This document shows, piece by piece, positions 15,511 through 62,899 of a DNA stretch of 64,000 bases (its first letter is position 1; each line of letters starts with the position of its first letter). The notes beneath the pieces are model-generated. The model made no database searches, was not told the origin of the DNA, and saw nothing but the letters and a program-made list of their open reading frames with translations. The stretch covers positions 1-64,000 of the forward strand of contig JAOOLD010000003.1 of assembly GCA_028408365.1 (NCBI GenBank). The letters are read 5' to 3'. The DNA is from Bacteroidota bacterium (lineage in GTDB: Bacteria; Bacteroidota; Bacteroidia; Flavobacteriales; BACL11). A program made the position numbers and the translations under genes.

Positions 15511-15518
15511 TAACTTTG
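15511..15518 (+). promoter_or_regulatory. -7 box TAACTTTG, 4 nt before porU ATG (predicted leaderless)
   Basis: taactttg-taat-atg. Confidence 0.55.
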
Positions 15519-15522
15519 TAAT

Positions 15523-18500
15523 ATGAGATTAATATCTGTGTTTCTTATTTTTAGTTTATCTTCTTTTTCACAAGAAAATTCTCAAAATAGTTCGATTTTC
15601 TCATCAGGAAACTGGTTCAAGATTTGTGTTGAAAATGATGGAGTATATAAATTAAGCAAGGAAGATCTCAATAATATGGGAATAGATAACCCAATTTATT
15701 GTGATCAAATTTCAATTTTCGGCAACTCATTTGGCATGCTTCCAAATAAAAATTCAGATTATAGGCCGCTAGAAATCACTGAAAATAGCATAAAATTAAT
15801 TGACTTGAATCAAAACAATATTTTAGAGAGTGAGGATATAATTTTATTTTATGGAAAATCACCAAACGAATGGGTTTTTAACTCAAGTTCTAAAAATTTT
15901 GAGTACGAGCAACATTTATATGATGACAAAAATTGTTATTTCATAAATGTTGAAGGAATTGGTCAATCAAAGAGAATAATGCTTGATAATGTTTCTACAA
16001 CATCTCCAACAATCGTTAATACCTTTAATGATATGGCTGTTGTTGAAAATGAAACAGAAAATCTTATAGAGTCAGGTAGTCAATGGTTTGGACAAAGATT
16101 CGATTTTCAAGTCCAAAAATCTTACAGTTTTAATTTTCCAAATCTAAGTAATGATTCAATTTATTTAAAAATTTCAGCTGTTTCTCGTTCTACATCAAGC
16201 TCCAGATTTGATATTCGAGCTCAAGGCAATATTATTGGTAATATAAACATATCTCCAATTTCAGGAAATTATGCTTCAGACTATGCAAAAGATGAAGTTT
16301 TTAACAACTATTTTTTGTCTAACTCTGACAATTTGCAAGTTGAGTTAACTTATGTACCTCAAATTTCCAATTCTACAGGCTGGCTCGATTACATTGAGAT
16401 TAATGCAGAAAGAGAACTAAATTTTGTCGGTACTCAAATGTTATTTACAAATTGTAAATCTATTACATCAGAAGATAGAAAATACCTCATCAACAACGTT
16501 AGCACAAATCAATCAATTTGGGATATAACCAAGAAAAATGATGTTGTTCAAAAAGAAATTACGTTTTCAAATAATCAGGCTCAGATTTTTTCGAAAGATG
16601 ATTTGTGTAATGAATTCATTATATTCACCAATTCTAACTATCTCACCCCTAGCTTTTATGGGAAAATAGAGAATCAAAATTTAAAAGAAATATCTAATGA
16701 GACTGAATACATAATTATAACTTCCAAAGATTTTGAATCTCAAGCGTATCAAATCTCAGATCTTCATTCCTCTTATGATAATTTAGTTTGTGAAGTTGTT
16801 GTAATAGATCTTATTTACAATGAATTTTCTTCAGGTGTAAAAGATATCACTGCTTTAAGAGATTTTATAAGATTTCAATACCTCAAAGAAAATTCTCAAC
16901 TCTCATACATTCTTCTACTTGGTGATGGTTCATATGATATGAAAAATAGAGTTCAAAACAACACTGATTTTATACCAACTTATCAAGCTAAAAACTCATT
17001 TCATCCAGTCAATTCTTATGTTTCCGATGATTACTTTGTAATGCTAGACGAAGATGATGGTGATTTTTTAAATGATATAATTGATTTACCAATTGGCAGA
17101 ATACCAATTTCAAATCAACAACAAGCAAATGACTTCGTTGAAAAATTATATAGTTATTATTCAAATTATTCACTGGGTTCATGGAGAAATAATTTCACTT
17201 TTATTGCTGACGATTGTGATAATGAATTTTTAGGATCTAATACACATATGTGGCAAGCTGATAGTTTGGCTAACATAATTGACGATAATGTTCAAAATTT
17301 TAATATAAATAAAATTTTTCTAGATAATTACAATCAAATTTCAACTGCTGGCGGTCCTAGAAGTCCTGATGCCCAAAATGCAATAAATGAAGCCATAAGT
17401 AAGGGTTCTCTATTTGTTAATTATACTGGACACGGTGGTGAACTAGGATGGACACAAGAAAGAATACTTGAGCTTTCTCAAATAAATCAATGGTCTAATA
17501 TTTATAGAATGCCGATTTTTATGACTGCAACTTGTAAATTTAGCAGATTCGACTCACCAACTGTCAGTTCTGCTGGAGAACAACTCTTATTAAATCCAAA
17601 AGGTGGTGCAATTGCATTGCTCAGTACTACAAGATTAGTTTATTCTAATCCAAACTATAACCTTAATAAAAAGTTTATTAATTCTATTGTTAATAATACT
17701 AATCTTAACGATCAAAAAATTAAACTTGGAGATATTTTTCTGGAGACCAAAGTTAACAGTGGTTCTAGCTTAAATAACAGAAATTTTACTCTTTTGGGAG
17801 ATCCTGCATTGACAATTAATTTCGCTGAAAACTTAATTGAAATAACTGAAAGTTCTGTCGATACTATGAAGGCGTTTTCAGAGGTTTCAGTAACAGGAAT
17901 AGTAAAAAATAATTCAGGTTCAAAAATTGAGAACTTTAATGGGTTTTTAAATGCCAAAGTTTATGAATATGAAAGAAATTTGTCTACGCTAGGGCAACAG
18001 AATTGTACACCAATGCCATATAGAGATCAAAGCTCTTTGATATTTAATGGAAACTGCACGGTTGTAAACGGAGATTTTAATTTTAAATTCACTGTTCCAG
18101 GTGATATCTCATACTTGTTTGGAAATGCCAAGATAAGTATGTATGCATTTGATACAACTAATACATTAACTGATGCTAAGGGCTATGATGAAAGTTTTGT
18201 AATAGGTGGTATTGAAAATAACTTTGTTGAAGATAATCAAGGTCCTCAAATTGATTTATATATCGACAATAGAAATTTTATTGATGGAGGAATCAGCAGT
18301 GAAAATCCTGTGCTAATTGTTGATTTATTTGACGAGAGTGGTATTAATACAACTCTTAATGGAATTGGACATCAAATTACTGCCACTTTGAATGGTGGAC
18401 CACCAGTAATATTAAATGATTTTTATACATCAGCATTAGATAACTATAGATCTGGAACAATAGAATATCAATTTTTCTCACTTGAAGATGGTGAGTACAT

Positions 18501-18888
18501 AGTTAATGTCAAAGCATGGGACTCTTTTAACAATTCCAGCGAGAAAAGTATAACTTTCTACATTAGAGACGGAAATGTTCTCTCCATTAAAAATTTTCAA
18601 TGCTTGCCAAATCCAGTTGTAAGTAACTGTAATTTCTATTTTGAGCATAATCAATCATCAACTTCTCTAAAAATCAATATAATTATCTATGATATGCTTG
18701 GAAATAAAATCAAAAAAATTAAGAGAACATTTGATGGTCAGAGTAGCAGAATAGGTCCTATACTATGGAATTTACGAGATGAAACCAATGTAATTGATGG
18801 GGGTATATATATTGCTAAGTTATTTGTTGAGAACGAAATTGGCTCGACTAAGACTAAATCAAATAGAATTATAATAATTAATGAATAA
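15523..18888 (+). CDS. porU: Type IX secretion system sortase PorU (peptidase C25 family)
   Basis: NYTGHGGELGW (His) and MTATCKFSRFD (Cys) of the gingipain/C25 fold; followed by porV. Confidence 0.93.
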   Translation: MRLISVFLIFSLSSFSQENSQNSSIFSSGNWFKICVENDGVYKLSKEDLNNMGIDNPIYCDQISIFGNSFGMLPNKNSDYRPLEITENSIKLIDLNQNNILESEDIILFYGKSPNEWVFNSSSKNFEYEQHLYDDKNCYFINVEGIGQSKRIMLDNVSTTSPTIVNTFNDMAVVENETENLIESGSQWFGQRFDFQVQKSYSFNFPNLSNDSIYLKISAVSRSTSSSRFDIRAQGNIIGNINISPISGNYASDYAKDEVFNNYFLSNSDNLQVELTYVPQISNSTGWLDYIEINAERELNFVGTQMLFTNCKSITSEDRKYLINNVSTNQSIWDITKKNDVVQKEITFSNNQAQIFSKDDLCNEFIIFTNSNYLTPSFYGKIENQNLKEISNETEYIIITSKDFESQAYQISDLHSSYDNLVCEVVVIDLIYNEFSSGVKDITALRDFIRFQYLKENSQLSYILLLGDGSYDMKNRVQNNTDFIPTYQAKNSFHPVNSYVSDDYFVMLDEDDGDFLNDIIDLPIGRIPISNQQQANDFVEKLYSYYSNYSLGSWRNNFTFIADDCDNEFLGSNTHMWQADSLANIIDDNVQNFNINKIFLDNYNQISTAGGPRSPDAQNAINEAISKGSLFVNYTGHGGELGWTQERILELSQINQWSNIYRMPIFMTATCKFSRFDSPTVSSAGEQLLLNPKGGAIALLSTTRLVYSNPNYNLNKKFINSIVNNTNLNDQKIKLGDIFLETKVNSGSSLNNRNFTLLGDPALTINFAENLIEITESSVDTMKAFSEVSVTGIVKNNSGSKIENFNGFLNAKVYEYERNLSTLGQQNCTPMPYRDQSSLIFNGNCTVVNGDFNFKFTVPGDISYLFGNAKISMYAFDTTNTLTDAKGYDESFVIGGIENNFVEDNQGPQIDLYIDNRNFIDGGISSENPVLIVDLFDESGINTTLNGIGHQITATLNGGPPVILNDFYTSALDNYRSGTIEYQFFSLEDGEYIVNVKAWDSFNNSSEKSITFYIRDGNVLSIKNFQCLPNPVVSNCNFYFEHNQSSTSLKINIIIYDMLGNKIKKIKRTFDGQSSRIGPILWNLRDETNVIDGGIYIAKLFVENEIGSTKTKSNRIIIINE

Positions 18889-18903
18889 TAACGTTAATTG
18901 CAA

Positions 18904-18911
18904 TATATTTG
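18904..18911 (+). promoter_or_regulatory. -7 box TATATTTG, 4 nt before porV ATG
   Basis: tatatttg-aaaa-atg. Confidence 0.5.
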
Positions 18912-18915
18912 AAAA

Positions 18916-20097
18916 ATGAGATTTATTAGCATTTTTGTTTTGATAATTCTAGCTAACCAGCTAGCATATACTCAAAATCAGTTAGAAATTGATGACCTGA
19001 CAGGGGGTCTTAACACAATTACAACAGCAGTACCTTTTCTAATGATAACTCCAGATTCAAGATCTGGCGCAATGGGAGATGTAGGAGTGGCAACTTCCCC
19101 TGATGCTAGCTCACTAAGTTCAAACCCAGCTAAGTATAGCTTTATAGAGGATGATATAGGTTTTTCCATTTCATATGTTCCTTGGCTCAGAGCACTAGTA
19201 CCTGATATCAATCTTTCCTACTTAAGCGGATATGGAAAACTAAATGAGAACGATGCACTTGGATTTGAGTTGAGATACTTTTCACTCGGGGATATTACAT
19301 TTACTGATATTTTAGGAAACACTTTAGGTCAATTTAATCCAAACGAACTAGCACTTGCTATGTCATATTCAAGAAAGCTAACTGATTTATTTTCACTGTC
19401 TATTGCTCCAAGATTTATTTATTCCAATCTAACAGGAGGACAAATGGCTGGAAATCTTCAAACAAGAGCAGGAAGATCACTAGCAGCTGATATTTCAGGC
19501 TATTACACTAATAATATTCGATTTTTAAAAAGGGATTCCGACTTATCATTTGGATTTAATATTTCTAACATTGGAAACAAAATTTCATATACAAATGTCG
19601 GTGAGAGAGATTTTATACCCATCAATTTAAAACTTGGTTCTTCGTTAAACATTAATTTTGATGATTATAATAGTATGTCTTATTCATTTGACATTAACAA
19701 GCTTCTTGTTCCAACTCCACCACTTTATAATTCTGAAAATGAAATTATTGCAGGAAAAGATCCAAATGTGTCAGTTGTAAGCGGTATTTTTCAATCTTTC
19801 TCTGATGCGCCAGATGGATTTTCAGAAGAGCTTCGTGAAATTAATTTATCTTTTGGAACAGAATACTGGTATGCTCAACAGTTCGCTCTTAGAGGAGGAT
19901 ATTTTTACGAACATGACACAAAAGGAGGTAGAAAATTTTTCACTTTTGGTGCAGGAGTTAAATACAACGTTTTTGCTTTGGATTTTTCATATTTAATAAA
20001 TGCAAGTAGAACAATAAATGGTACTAATCCATTAGCAAATACTATGAGATTCACAATGATTTTTGATATTGGGGCATTACAACAAGAGGGAATATAA
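18916..20097 (+). CDS. porV: Type IX secretion outer membrane channel protein PorV (LptO)
   Basis: PFLMITPDSRSGAMGDVGVATSPDASSLSSNPAKYSF. Confidence 0.94.
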   Translation: MRFISIFVLIILANQLAYTQNQLEIDDLTGGLNTITTAVPFLMITPDSRSGAMGDVGVATSPDASSLSSNPAKYSFIEDDIGFSISYVPWLRALVPDINLSYLSGYGKLNENDALGFELRYFSLGDITFTDILGNTLGQFNPNELALAMSYSRKLTDLFSLSIAPRFIYSNLTGGQMAGNLQTRAGRSLAADISGYYTNNIRFLKRDSDLSFGFNISNIGNKISYTNVGERDFIPINLKLGSSLNINFDDYNSMSYSFDINKLLVPTPPLYNSENEIIAGKDPNVSVVSGIFQSFSDAPDGFSEELREINLSFGTEYWYAQQFALRGGYFYEHDTKGGRKFFTFGAGVKYNVFALDFSYLINASRTINGTNPLANTMRFTMIFDIGALQQEGI

Positions 20098-36364: not shown

Positions 36365-37355
36365 GTTCTAGAATATTTTTTTCAAAATTATCATTTTCGT
36401 GAAAATCAAGAGCTATCTTTTGTACATAAAAAGGATACTTACCAATAAATCTAATGAAATTCATCAATTTTACACTATCTTTTTCTGTAGTTACTATAAT
36501 TTTATCATTTGTATCTATTTTATTAAATGTTTTTATGATTTCATGGACGTCAGTCTTTGTAAAGCTATAATGGTCAGGTTTAGAGAAAGTATGCACTTTT
36601 CTACTAATCTTTGCTAAATAGTTAAATAATTCAGTGTTGTCAGCGATAGCTGTTACTAGAAGAATTTCAGTTCTGGAGCAGATATTAAATTTTTTTTTAG
36701 TTCTAATATGAGTTAAATCTAAATATTTTGTTTGACAGAAATAAGTAGGTTTATTGCACAAATGATTTAAAAAGCACTTCCTTTTTTTATTATCCAATGA
36801 TAAATCACACTTTGTAATTATGATGTAATCAGATCTTTTAAAGTTTTTCTTTTTTTCTCTTAATCTGCCAAAAGGTAGCAAATAATCATTAAAAAATGGA
36901 TTTTTAAATGTTGTCAAAATAAATTGTATGTCAGGTTTAACCCATCTGTTTTGAAATCCATCGTCCATAATTATTAGTTCAACACTCTTATCAATCAATT
37001 TGTTGATTCCTCTTTGTCTGTTAATGTCAACTGCTATTATTAAAAATGGATACTTGCTTTTAAGCATACAAACCTCATCACCATATTTGTTAGTATCAAT
37101 ATCATTAACAAAATGAAATCCTTTACTCTTTCTCTTATAACCTCTTGAGATAATTCCTATTTTATAGTCTTTTGAAAGCATATTAATAAGGTGATCTACA
37201 AACGAAGTTTTTCCTGTTCCACCAGTAGACAAGTTGCCGACACAAATTAAAGTCTTGTTGAAGTTTTTAGACTTTAGAATATTGTAGTTGAATAGAATGT
37301 TTTTAAACTCGGTAAAAAGTCCATAAATGAATGAAAAAAATCTTAATAGTAACAT
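36327..37355 (-). CDS. lpxK: Tetraacyldisaccharide 4'-kinase
   Basis: VGNLSTGGTGKTSFVDHL, GIISRGYKRKSKG, IIMDDGFQ. Confidence 0.92.
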   Translation of the reverse strand: MLLLRFFSFIYGLFTEFKNILFNYNILKSKNFNKTLICVGNLSTGGTGKTSFVDHLINMLSKDYKIGIISRGYKRKSKGFHFVNDIDTNKYGDEVCMLKSKYPFLIIAVDINRQRGINKLIDKSVELIIMDDGFQNRWVKPDIQFILTTFKNPFFNDYLLPFGRLREKKKNFKRSDYIIITKCDLSLDNKKRKCFLNHLCNKPTYFCQTKYLDLTHIRTKKKFNICSRTEILLVTAIADNTELFNYLAKISRKVHTFSKPDHYSFTKTDVHEIIKTFNKIDTNDKIIVTTEKDSVKLMNFIRFIGKYPFYVQKIALDFHENDNFEKNILEHVRETSKNKELS

Positions 37356-37363
37356 TAGTCAAG

Positions 37364-37371
37364 CAAAGATA
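37364..37371 (-). promoter_or_regulatory. -7 box TATCTTTG, 8 nt before lpxK ATG
   Basis: Reverse complement of caaagata. Confidence 0.5.
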
Positions 37372-37390
37372 TACAATAAGATATTTATAT

Positions 37391-37398
37391 TATTTTTG
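37391..37398 (+). promoter_or_regulatory. -7 box TATTTTTG, 4 nt before Nif3-like ATG
   Basis: tatttttg-aaaa-atg. Confidence 0.5.
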
Positions 37399-37402
37399 AA
37401 AA

Positions 37403-38497
37403 ATGAAGATTAAAGATGTAATTGATTATTTGGAGGATTTTGCACCAATTTCTCTACAAGAGGACTATGACAATAGCGGTCTTAATATTGGGAATGTAAA
37501 TAATGAATTAACTAATATTTTAGTTTCTTTAGATTGTAATCTTGAAGTAATTAAAGAAGCCATAAGTAAAAATTGTAATCTTTTAATAACACATCATCCG
37601 ATAATATTTAAAAATTTAAGATCAATTACAGGCTCGAATAATTCTGAAAATTGCATAGTAGAAGCAATCAAAAATAACATATCAATTTATTGTATTCACA
37701 CCAACCTTGATAATACTTTTTATGGTGTCAATTATAAAATAGCAGAAAGGTTAAAGATTAATGATTATAAGATTTTAAAACCAATATCAAATATTTTTAA
37801 ATTAGAAGTTTACTGTCCTGATAATCATTGTGATGAGCTGAGAAATGCCATTTTTGAATCAGGAGCTGGAAAAATGGGCAATTATGATTCTTGTAGCTTT
37901 AATGTTAATGGTAAAGGTACTTTTAAACCGCTTTCTGGATCAAAACCTTCGATTGGTAAAAAAAATAAGCTTGAAGTTGTAAGCGAGCAAAAATTAGAGT
38001 TTATATTTTATGAAAATCAAATGAATAATGTACTTCAAGCGATGATCAAATCTCACCCATATGAAAAAATTGCTCATCAAATTATCAAATTGAATAATAA
38101 AAATCTTTATGCTGGCTCTGGTGGATATGGTTTTCTTGCCAAATCAACCCGAACAGTTGATTTTTTTAAACTTCTTAAAAGTGTTTTTAAAGCAGAGGGC
38201 ATAAGGCACACCAAGGTATTAAATGAAAAAGTTCATAAGATTGCTTTTTGTGGAGGAAGCGGTAGTTTTCTAATTGAAAGTGCGATTAAAAATAAATGTG
38301 ATGTATTTATTACTAGCGATTTGAAATATCATGATTTCTTTGATTTTCAAGATCAGATATGTATTGTAGATATTGGACACTTTGAAAGTGAACAGTTTAC
38401 TATGGATTTAATAAAAGAAAAAATTTCTCAAAATTTTAGTACATTTGCCATCCACTTATCTAATGTTAAAACAAACCCAATAAAATATTTAAATTAA
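37403..38497 (+). CDS. Nif3-like dinuclear metal center hexameric protein
   Basis: EDYDNSGLNIG, LLITHHPIIFK, YCIHTNLDN, DIGHFESEQFTMDLI. Confidence 0.92.
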   Translation: MKIKDVIDYLEDFAPISLQEDYDNSGLNIGNVNNELTNILVSLDCNLEVIKEAISKNCNLLITHHPIIFKNLRSITGSNNSENCIVEAIKNNISIYCIHTNLDNTFYGVNYKIAERLKINDYKILKPISNIFKLEVYCPDNHCDELRNAIFESGAGKMGNYDSCSFNVNGKGTFKPLSGSKPSIGKKNKLEVVSEQKLEFIFYENQMNNVLQAMIKSHPYEKIAHQIIKLNNKNLYAGSGGYGFLAKSTRTVDFFKLLKSVFKAEGIRHTKVLNEKVHKIAFCGGSGSFLIESAIKNKCDVFITSDLKYHDFFDFQDQICIVDIGHFESEQFTMDLIKEKISQNFSTFAIHLSNVKTNPIKYLN

Positions 38498-51434: not shown

Positions 51435-53138
51435 TCAACTAAGCCATTTTTTTTGGCATTTGGACTGATTATTAGAAATGTTGTGTTCTTTTTCAAATTC
51501 TAAAAGTTTAAAGTAATTGCCTTTTTCTAATTCAACATTCTTTAAAGCAAGTTTTTTTTCAATTTTCATTGAAACTAAATTATCAGACTCAGCTAATATT
51601 TCCTTGTAGTCTTTTACATTTTTATTATTGTTAATTTCAAGTATAATATCCTCGGGTCCAATGCCGTTTTGATCAGCTGTGGAGTTTGGCTCAACTTTTT
51701 TAATAATTAACTTATTATTAGAAATTTCTGAGACGATACCAAAATATCTACAAAGCAATTCAGGATTCTTTTTTTCAACAAGCTTTAAGCCAACAATTTC
51801 AATTGATTTCTTTAAACTTGGTACGTAATCACTGGTTCCATATATATGATTTTGAAAAATATTTGATACCTCATTTCCACCATATTTTATACATAAAGAC
51901 TTAAAATCATCTTCACTGTATCCAATTTCTTTTTTTGCATATTTTGTGTAAAGATCTTTCATCACGCAGTGGAGAGAATGTTTTGTGTCACTATTTTTTA
52001 TAATGTTTAAGTCAATCATTAGCATACATAATGCTCCATCAGGATAAATCGAGACTTTTCTGTAAGGTGTTCCCATTTTGTAACCGTCAAGCCAACTATC
52101 AAAACCACTATCAGCAACAGACAAATTGAAACGTCCGTAGTTCATTAAATGCCTATATAAATTTTGATTTTGTGTTTTAATAAAATCATCCCATGAAAAA
52201 ACTTTACTGTTGATAAGAAATAAATCACCCATATATGTAGTTACGCCCTCAGCAACATAGCCTGTTCTAAAGTAATTTTCCTTTGAATAATCATAAGGTA
52301 ACATTTCAATAGGTCTAATAGATTTAATGTTCCATGTGTGGTAGAGTTCATGGGAACATACACCTAATAAATCGTCATACCTTTCTGTCATTAAATCATC
52401 ACTTGGGCCAAGCAAAATAACGGTGTTTTTTGTATGTTCAACTCCGTGATAGGAACGGTAAGGCGTTATCTGAAATAAAAAATGATACTCATCCACTGGA
52501 AAGTCTCCAAAATGATTAATTTGACTTTGAGTAAATTTTTTGAAATCTGAAATTAATTTTTTCCAATTAGGCTTACAACTTCCTTCAAACCAAAGATGAA
52601 ATAAAATATTATCAACTTCGTAAGAATTATGTTGTAACTTTTTTGAGCAGATAATAGGTGATTCAGCTAATGAGTCAAAATTTTCAGAATGTAATGTATT
52701 ACCTTTTTTTGATAAAGAAGTTGCAATTTTATAATCTGAGGGAATATCTAATGTTAGTTTATATTTTTCATCAATTCTATTATCAAGGTAGAAAATACAA
52801 TTGACTGGATTTATATATAATTGGTTTTCATCAAGAAATGAACTACCAGCATTAAGTAGGTTTGCATAAAAATTATATTTTACTTTTACTTTTTCTAATC
52901 CGTTGCACTCAATTAACCAAGAATCTTTATCATTTTTTTTGAATTTTAATTTTTCCCCATTAATGCTAAACGCAGACCATTTTTGGATATATTGTGCGTA
53001 ATTAGCTAGTTCATATCTTCCTGGGCGCCAACTTGCTAGCTTTAAAATAATTTTTTCACTACCGTTAGTTTCAAATTTCAGCTCAAAATCAATAAAATGT
53101 CTCCAAGGTTTTTTATAGCTAATGTTATATTCAATCAT
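51435..53138 (-). CDS. M61-family peptidase with PDZ-like domain
   Basis: YHGVEHTKNTVILLG, GVCSHELYHTWNIKSIRP, YVAEGVTTYMGDL. Confidence 0.93.
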   Translation of the reverse strand: MIEYNISYKKPWRHFIDFELKFETNGSEKIILKLASWRPGRYELANYAQYIQKWSAFSINGEKLKFKKNDKDSWLIECNGLEKVKVKYNFYANLLNAGSSFLDENQLYINPVNCIFYLDNRIDEKYKLTLDIPSDYKIATSLSKKGNTLHSENFDSLAESPIICSKKLQHNSYEVDNILFHLWFEGSCKPNWKKLISDFKKFTQSQINHFGDFPVDEYHFLFQITPYRSYHGVEHTKNTVILLGPSDDLMTERYDDLLGVCSHELYHTWNIKSIRPIEMLPYDYSKENYFRTGYVAEGVTTYMGDLFLINSKVFSWDDFIKTQNQNLYRHLMNYGRFNLSVADSGFDSWLDGYKMGTPYRKVSIYPDGALCMLMIDLNIIKNSDTKHSLHCVMKDLYTKYAKKEIGYSEDDFKSLCIKYGGNEVSNIFQNHIYGTSDYVPSLKKSIEIVGLKLVEKKNPELLCRYFGIVSEISNNKLIIKKVEPNSTADQNGIGPEDIILEINNNKNVKDYKEILAESDNLVSMKIEKKLALKNVELEKGNYFKLLEFEKEHNISNNQSKCQKKWLS

Positions 53139-53142
53139 CATT

Positions 53143-53150
53143 CAAATCTA
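53143..53150 (-). promoter_or_regulatory. -7 box TAGATTTG, 4 nt before the second in-frame ATG of the M61 peptidase
   Basis: TAGATTTG-AATG-ATGATTGAATAT on the minus strand. Confidence 0.5.
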
Positions 53151-56530: not shown

Positions 56531-56536
56531 CATTGA

Positions 56537-56631
56537 CTTATCAAGAAAGACGGAGGGATGGGCCCGACGATGTCTTGGCAACCTTTAAAGATGGTGCCAA
56601 TTCCCACTTCAAAAGACTGAAGGAAGATGAG
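56537..56631 (+). promoter_or_regulatory. SAM-I (S-box) riboswitch controlling metH
   Basis: GGAGGGATGGGCCCGACGATGTCTTGGCAACC...ATGGTGCCAATTCC...GAAGATGAG; P1 cttatc/gatgag and P2 aagac/gtctt pair. Confidence 0.93.
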
Positions 56632-56681
56632 AATTACTGATTTAATTTTCCGACTTTTTTGATTTGCTCAAATTAACTAAA

Positions 56682-61262: not shown

Positions 61263-61951
61263 CTTTCAATTGTTGATTCGAATATTTTCTCAATATTATC
61301 TGATTCATTAATGCTTACATCTTTTTTCACGATACCATTTTTTAGAATTACAATTCTATTGCAGACTTTACTCACTTCGTTGATAATATGTGTGGAAAAA
61401 ATTATAATTTTATTTTTTGAGATTTTTTTTATTAAATCTCTAAAATGAATTAGTTGCTTAGGATCTAGTCCTGTTGTTGGTTCATCTAAAATTAAAATTT
61501 TTGGTTCATGTAACAAGCATGAGCATAATCCAACTCTTTGCTTTTGTCCTTTTGAAAGCTCACTAATTTTTCTAAATGATAAATCAGTTATTTCTGTGAG
61601 TTTTTGATATTCATTTATTTGTTTTTTAAAGCTTTTTAAACCATATAATTTTGATGTGAAAATCAAATATTCTTTAACTTTCATCTCCTCATATAATGGA
61701 TTGTCTTCAGCCAAATATCCAATTTTAGATTTAATATTATACTCATCAAATTCTGTATCCAATTTGTCTATAAAAACTTTACCATCAGACTGTCTTAATA
61801 GACAAGATATAATTTTTAAGAGTGTTGTTTTACCAGCACCATTTTCACCAATAAGTCCAATTATTTCACCTTTATTAAATTCAAGTGAAATATTAAAAAG
61901 TGCATTTATATTGTCATAACTTTTAGATATATTTTTTATAGAAATTTTCAT
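61259..61951 (-). CDS. ABC transporter ATP-binding protein (GldA-like)
   Basis: GLIGENGAGKTTLLKIISCLL, LSKGQKQRVGLC, ILDEPTTGLDP; start trimmed to MKISIKNISKSYD. Confidence 0.88.
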   Translation of the reverse strand: MKISIKNISKSYDNINALFNISLEFNKGEIIGLIGENGAGKTTLLKIISCLLRQSDGKVFIDKLDTEFDEYNIKSKIGYLAEDNPLYEEMKVKEYLIFTSKLYGLKSFKKQINEYQKLTEITDLSFRKISELSKGQKQRVGLCSCLLHEPKILILDEPTTGLDPKQLIHFRDLIKKISKNKIIIFSTHIINEVSKVCNRIVILKNGIVKKDVSINESDNIEKIFESTIES

Positions 61952-61955
61952 AATG

Positions 61956-61963
61956 CAAAGATA
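61956..61963 (-). promoter_or_regulatory. -7 box TATCTTTG, 4 nt before ABC ATPase ATG
   Basis: Reverse complement of caaagata; gap CATT. Confidence 0.55.
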
Positions 61964-61975
61964 GAAAATACTGAT

Positions 61976-61983
61976 TATATTTG
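61976..61983 (+). promoter_or_regulatory. -7 box TATATTTG, 4 nt before rsgA ATG
   Basis: tatatttg-tttt-atg. Confidence 0.55.
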
Positions 61984-61987
61984 TTTT

Positions 61988-62899
61988 ATGGAAGCTGTTG
62001 TGCAAAAGTCACTTGGAAAATATTTTTCAGTCAAAAAAAGTAATGGAGAAATAGTAACTGCAACATTAGCAGGAAAACTAAGAAATTTAGATGCTGACTC
62101 TACAAGTCCTATAGTAATTGGAGACAAAGTAGAAATCATAAATCAAAATGATGATTGGTCTATTGTCCAACTTTTTGAAAGAAAAAATTTTATTGCAAGG
62201 AAATCTGTTAAGCTAAGTAAAAGAAGGCATATAATAGCGGCGAATGTTGATCAGTGTTTATTAATTGTTACAAAAAAATCACCTAAAACATCTACAAGTT
62301 TTATTGATAGATTTTTAGTTGCTTGTGAGCATAATAATGTTCCAGTGTCAATAATTTTTAACAAAACAGATTTGTTAAATAAAGATGAATTACAAAGTTT
62401 AAACTCTTTATTGAATTACTATAATAAAATTGGATATAATTGTTTGAAAACATCATTTGAGCACGATAGTCTCGAAAGTATTAAGAGGCTTATCAAAGGA
62501 AAATTTAGCCTAATTTCAGGACATTCTGGTGTTGGAAAATCGACATTAATAAATAAGCTTAATTCAAATTTTAATATTAGAGTTTCTGAAATTTCAGATT
62601 ATCATGAGCAAGGTAAACATACTACGACTTTTTCTGAAATATATGACATAGATAATGAAACCTCATTAATTGACACCCCGGGTATAAGAGGATTTGGATT
62701 AATTAAAATTGATAGGAAAGATATTAGTAAATATTTTCCTGAGTTTGTGCAAAATCAACACAAATGTAAGTATTCAAATTGTGTGCATATTAATGAGCCT
62801 AGCTGTGAAATTAAAAAACTAAAAAGTTCAGGACTTATTTTATTATCAAGATATGATAATTATTGTTCAATGTTTAGATCTGAAGACATATACAGATGA
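61988..62899 (+). CDS. rsgA: Ribosome small subunit-dependent GTPase A
   Basis: Circularly permuted GTPase: NKTD before SGHSGVGKSTLINKL; DTPGIRGFGL; Zn motif CKYSNCVHINEPSC. Confidence 0.95.
   Translation: MEAVVQKSLGKYFSVKKSNGEIVTATLAGKLRNLDADSTSPIVIGDKVEIINQNDDWSIVQLFERKNFIARKSVKLSKRRHIIAANVDQCLLIVTKKSPKTSTSFIDRFLVACEHNNVPVSIIFNKTDLLNKDELQSLNSLLNYYNKIGYNCLKTSFEHDSLESIKRLIKGKFSLISGHSGVGKSTLINKLNSNFNIRVSEISDYHEQGKHTTTFSEIYDIDNETSLIDTPGIRGFGLIKIDRKDISKYFPEFVQNQHKCKYSNCVHINEPSCEIKKLKSSGLILLSRYDNYCSMFRSEDIYR

Follow-up and report, generated by a model that had tools for sequence, protein, structure and literature searches.

Leaderless mRNAs and the σABfr promoter of Bacteroidota are both already known. 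In Flavobacterium johnsoniae, transcription starts 4 or 5 nt past the -7 box, whose consensus TAnnTTTG was revised to TAHHTTTG (PMC6847099). Start sites measured in two further members of the phylum, which use the same kind of promoter, assign short or absent leaders to a small minority: 5.5% of mRNAs are leaderless in Flavobacterium psychrophilum (PMC9723704), and 3.7% of 5' untranslated regions are under 10 nt in Bacteroides thetaiotaomicron (PMC7366714). Predicted leaderless genes average 19% and 39% in Actinobacteria and Deinococcus-Thermus, respectively (PMC3160421), where the distance between promoter box and start codon is also fixed but the box is a different one. The same survey reported leaderless genes in 1 of 37 Bacteroidetes/Chlorobi genomes; its authors state that only Pribnow-like boxes were detectable, and most Bacteroidota were missed for this reason. 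In the flavobacteria studied, leaderless mRNAs were considered too infrequent to account for the translation of their genes.

The genome described here belongs to the family BACL11 of the Flavobacteriales. Its promoters resemble the known σABfr type in the box itself, in the avoidance of G at the free positions and in the spacing expected for a start 4 to 5 nt downstream. In F. johnsoniae, however, 87% of predicted leaders are >10 nt, whereas an estimated 14 to 37% of box promoters in three BACL11-family genera lie at leaderless spacing. This share is larger than those measured in F. psychrophilum and B. thetaiotaomicron, but it is predicted, and certain genes keep the arrangement between genera. 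The box arrangement is real, occurs far above chance, is unusually common in the BACL11 family and is conserved between genera in a few genes.

The host (a Bacteroidota bacterium, assembly GCA_028408365.1; 1.47 Mb, 86% complete) has a small genome of 30% GC. The window is the whole stretch of 64,000 nt analyzed (JAOOLD010000003.1, positions 1 to 64,000, forward strand), for which the initial annotation had listed six genes with TAnnTTTG exactly 4 nt before ATG. All six sites were read from the sequence with the claimed spacing, strand, and open reading frame. On the plus strand, box TAACTTTG (15511-15518) is followed by 4 nt and the ATG of porU (15523-15525; whole site, 15511-15525), TATATTTG stands 4 nt before the ATG of porV (18904-18918), TATTTTTG does so at the DUF34/NIF3 gene nif3 (37391-37405; Pfam PF01784), and TATATTTG recurs at rsgA (61976-61990; box, 61976-61983; ATG, 61988-61990). 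On the minus strand, TATCTTTG (61963-61956) lies 4 nt from the ATG (61951-61949) of an ABC ATPase (61949-61963), and TAGATTTG (53150-53143) precedes an M61 peptidase gene (53136-53150). The M61 gene begins with tandem codons, ATGATG, and the 4-nt spacing holds for the second ATG (53138-53136) but not for the first, which lies 1 nt from the box. This start is ambiguous; the start of the sole orthologue found corresponds to the second ATG, and its box lies at 17 nt. The box of lpxK (37364-37371, minus strand; Pfam PF02606), divergent from nif3, lies 8 nt before the ATG at 37355, as originally noted, making lpxK a predicted short-leader gene and not a leaderless one. Pfam matches back the gene names (Peptidase_C25 for porU, PorV, DUF34_NIF3, Peptidase_M61, ABC_tran, RsgA_GTPase, and LpxK).

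The pattern TANNTTTGN4ATG occurs 8 times in the window versus 2.28 ± 1.66 times in dinucleotide shuffles, 1 of 100 of which reached ≥8. The two further matches (32158, plus strand; 55444, minus strand) are not gene starts and lie antisense to or within predicted genes. Under a per-position background, spacing 4 in 5 or more of the 55 window genes has a p of about 2e-8. The ABC ATPase gene and rsgA, both predicted to be leaderless, are divergent, with 36 bp separating their coding regions (61951-61988) and outward-facing boxes 12 bp apart; both boxes are conserved within the genus. At this distance two polymerases could hardly bind together, and the two promoters should exclude each other. A like pair of divergent, putatively leaderless genes, 53 bp apart, is found on another contig (C11, 12532-14627).

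A histogram of box-to-ATG spacing had been proposed as a check; it peaks sharply at exactly 4 nt. The host sample comprised the window and an extra 658 kb (722 kb in total, about half of the genome), in which a simple hexamer-based caller, taking the 5'-most ATG as the start, identified 587 gene starts. Spacing (d) is the number of nucleotides between TANNTTTG and that ATG, and the background, taken from distances of 60 to 110, is 0.84 per position. Counts at d = 0 to 8 are 0, 1, 0, 4, 32, 5, 1, 3, and 5; thus, 32 of 587 starts have spacing 4, against about 0.8 expected (p about 3e-39). Spacing 4 had been fixed in advance by the initial annotation, so no search across spacings was involved. 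When the letters of the motif were permuted, only the true motif gave a peak (mean at d = 4, 1.6 over all 30 permutations, the true one included). Over the whole host genome there are 97 matches at spacing 4 versus 31 at spacing 7, the control with the same codon phase, and 18 for the reversed pattern. In the sample, 32 of 52 spacing-4 sites are gene starts, compared with only 0 to 7 at spacings of 1, 2, 7, 10, 13, and 16. The promoter distance that would put +1 on the start codon is therefore commoner than chance in the host. No excess was detected in a search for leaderless GTG or TTG starts.

Three neighboring positions left free by the pattern provide an independent test of whether the boxes are promoters. 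G occupies either inner free position in 1 of 32 leaderless boxes, 12 of 79 leadered boxes, and 232 of 948 matches inside genes (leaderless versus inside genes, p = 0.003), in agreement with the TAHHTTTG consensus, and a pyrimidine lies directly 3' of the box in 26 of 32, 63 of 79, and 379 of 948, respectively. In their free positions, the leaderless boxes thus look like leadered promoters and unlike chance matches. Neither leaderless nor leadered boxes show a clear -33 element (TTTG) in the base composition of their upstream sequence; this element is also weak in F. johnsoniae. A GC content of 30%, and the one shuffle in 100 that equaled the window's eight matches, might suggest chance in an AT-rich genome, but the significance of the peak over 587 starts, its restriction to the true motif, and the conservation of nif3 and rsgA make this the least credible explanation, to be all but dismissed. 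TTTG-N4-ATG could instead be a translation signal rather than a promoter, since mRNA structure and several nucleotide identities near the start matter for translation in F. johnsoniae (PMC6847099). This is highly improbable, as the box is also enriched 8 to 30 nt ahead of other genes, where its flanking preferences are unchanged, and d = 4 boxes are rare at genes that follow a co-directional neighbor at ≤20 nt (4 of 265) but common at divergent genes (19 of 172), which is what a promoter predicts. Divergent gaps in the host are shorter at leaderless starts (median, 53 versus 102 nt; p = 0.014), and this preference has no significance in two other genera of the family (G002 and G028).

The called ATGs could also be wrong, with real starts at downstream ATGs and normal leaders, because the 5'-most-ATG rule can lengthen genes upstream and miscalled porU and rsgA of relatives in this way. 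Such miscalls would not pile up at one spacing, and the genes themselves make the explanation very hard to sustain. The spacing-4 list includes glmS, recR, ssb, purQ, pheT, and fmt, named by recognized N-terminal sequences and not by search. The catalytic cysteine of the glmS product must be residue 2, so this gene must begin at MCGIV, as it does in the list. Orthologue alignments run from residue 1 for nif3, rsgA, recR, purQ, pheT, and others, and many spacing-4 genes contain no further in-frame ATG in their first 60 codons. A closer competitor, although still unlikely, is that the genes are near-leaderless, with start choice sliding by a few bases, leaders of 1 to 5 nt, and spacing 4 as the middle of a short-leader group. 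Spacings of 4, 5, or 6 for rsgA and of 4 or 5 for porU among relatives agree with this, as do F. johnsoniae start sites at both 4 and 5 nt, but the host peak is one base wide (4, 32, 5, and 1 at d = 3, 4, 5, and 6), and nif3 keeps exactly 4 nt in nearly all relatives.

The reading favored here, held with considerable confidence, is that σABfr promoters are set so that transcription would begin at the A of the start codon, or at most one base away from it, and that the mRNAs would be leaderless. The claim that this A is about +1 is supported by the F. johnsoniae start sites 4 to 5 nt past the box (PMC6847099), which would place +1 on or beside it. A housekeeping promoter of the σABfr type, sited 4 nt before ATG, would have RNA polymerase begin on the A or within one base, and the resulting mRNA would be translated through recognition of its 5'-terminal AUG, without an upstream leader. 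For the host we infer both a start 4 to 5 nt past the box, as in F. johnsoniae, and leaderless translation of the mRNAs. Recognition of leaderless mRNAs involves the 5'-terminal AUG, initiator tRNA, and IF2 (review, PMC10783764). Set against the few short leaders of F. johnsoniae (13% at ≤10 nt) and the 5.5% of F. psychrophilum, the high share in the BACL11 family is an extrapolation from sequence.

The leaderless share, computed with one pipeline for all genomes, was taken as the background-subtracted count at d = 3 to 5 relative to starts preceded by an exact box at up to 60 nt; it does not refer to all genes. It amounts to 0.37 in the host (bootstrap, 0.27 to 0.49), 0.36 in G028 (0.22 to 0.58), and 0.14 in G002 (0.08 to 0.20), compared with 0 of 75 box promoters in a genome from another Flavobacteriales family (G100). 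Two other genera have separate peaks of their own at d = 4, with 18 of 710 and 18 of 322 starts against backgrounds of 0.8 and 0.6, respectively. All 30 BACL11-family genomes searched have more matches at spacing 4 than at spacing 7 (totals, 2875 versus 1069). Among 59 Flavobacteriales genomes, excess spacing-4 sites per Mb number 42 in the BACL11 family versus 2 to 18 in 14 other families. Small genome size was rejected as the whole cause: excess density does not follow it across the 59 genomes (Spearman, -0.01) and is low in other families with small genomes. Outside the class Bacteroidia, the ratio of spacing 4 to spacing 7 is near 1 in the sampled genomes (2011 versus 1810). A 2.2-Mb genome assigned to a different order within this class (G084) is likewise strongly enriched (128 matches at spacing 4 versus 40 at spacing 7); the trait may therefore have had more than one origin.

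The initial annotation regarded the repeated spacing as a deliberate class of leaderless genes. This is only partly supported: the arrangement is strongly conserved in nif3 and rsgA, and probably in porU, but between genera the majority of leaderless starts give way to leadered ones. Among 20 G002 orthologues of leaderless or near-leaderless genes, 2 are leaderless, 11 have a box at 6 to 40 nt, and 7 have no box, although this tally undercounts near-leaderless cases such as porU and rsgA, which calling of 5'-most starts missed and direct inspection recovered. A general conserved set of leaderless genes is not supported, orthologue overlap being nonsignificant (p = 0.09 for G002 and 0.52 for G028).

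Conservation is strongest in nif3, where 28 of 30 family loci, spread over 12 of the 13 genera examined, have a spacing of exactly 4 nt, although the upstream sequence has otherwise diverged. An extension of leaderless nif3 to the whole order or phylum was rejected: the spacing is 5 in a related family (f30) and in one genome of another (f29), and a box close to the start is absent from nearly all loci examined beyond these and BACL11. In the host, the Nif3-like protein has 364 amino acids (37403-38497); in several relatives (e.g., G001, G025, G026, and G034) it has about 263 and no middle domain. In rsgA, the spacing is 4, 5, or 6 in 28 of 28 scorable family loci, and porU has its box at 4 nt in two genomes of the same genus but at 5 nt in three from outside that genus. 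The box of porV begins 15 nt past the porU stop codon, and the proposal that porV has its own promoter is upheld across the family, in which 28 of 30 loci retain a box no more than 22 nt from this gene. Spacing 4 is found only in its own genus and is replaced by 15 to 22 nt in most other genera; the porV promoter is conserved, but its predicted leaderless state would be either recent in the host genus or lost elsewhere. The ABC ATPase gene has spacing 4 in the genus and several other genera, and its box lies at 29 to 44 nt or is absent in others.

Most cases are best read as a probable outcome of neutral sliding of start points over evolutionary time, whereas the leaderless state of nif3 and rsgA looks selectively maintained. 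Translation in Bacteroidota does not rely on Shine-Dalgarno pairing, and Shine-Dalgarno sequences are largely absent; loss of a leader may therefore be tolerated. The 16S rRNA gene of G100, a genome without a leaderless peak, ends in GGCTGGAACACCTCCTTTCT (L270, around position 2415, plus strand) and retains the anti-Shine-Dalgarno core CCTCC; the 3' end of the host's own 16S rRNA gene was looked for in the sampled stretches and was not found. Leaderless initiation might conceivably be a regulated mode of expression, in which selection keeps rsgA and nif3 leaderless and their translation tracks the ribosome pool or initiation factor levels, as would occur, e.g., in feedback control of 30S assembly, but this is doubtful. 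The rsgA product is a 30S ribosome assembly GTPase, and a link between this function and leaderless translation is equally speculative and improbable.

As far as literature searches show, the strong leaderless enrichment in the BACL11 family and its gene-specific conservation are new; no report of such enrichment for this family was found. With an estimated seventh to third of box promoters leaderless and two or three genes kept so between genera, the question of whether leaderless initiation is regulated or merely tolerated in Bacteroidota can be asked of a defined gene set. The spacing rule can also correct start codon annotation in BACL11-family genomes. Elsewhere in the window, a SAM riboswitch (56535-56633, plus strand; Rfam RF00162, 78.8 bits) lies just 5' of an open reading frame of 1213 amino acids.
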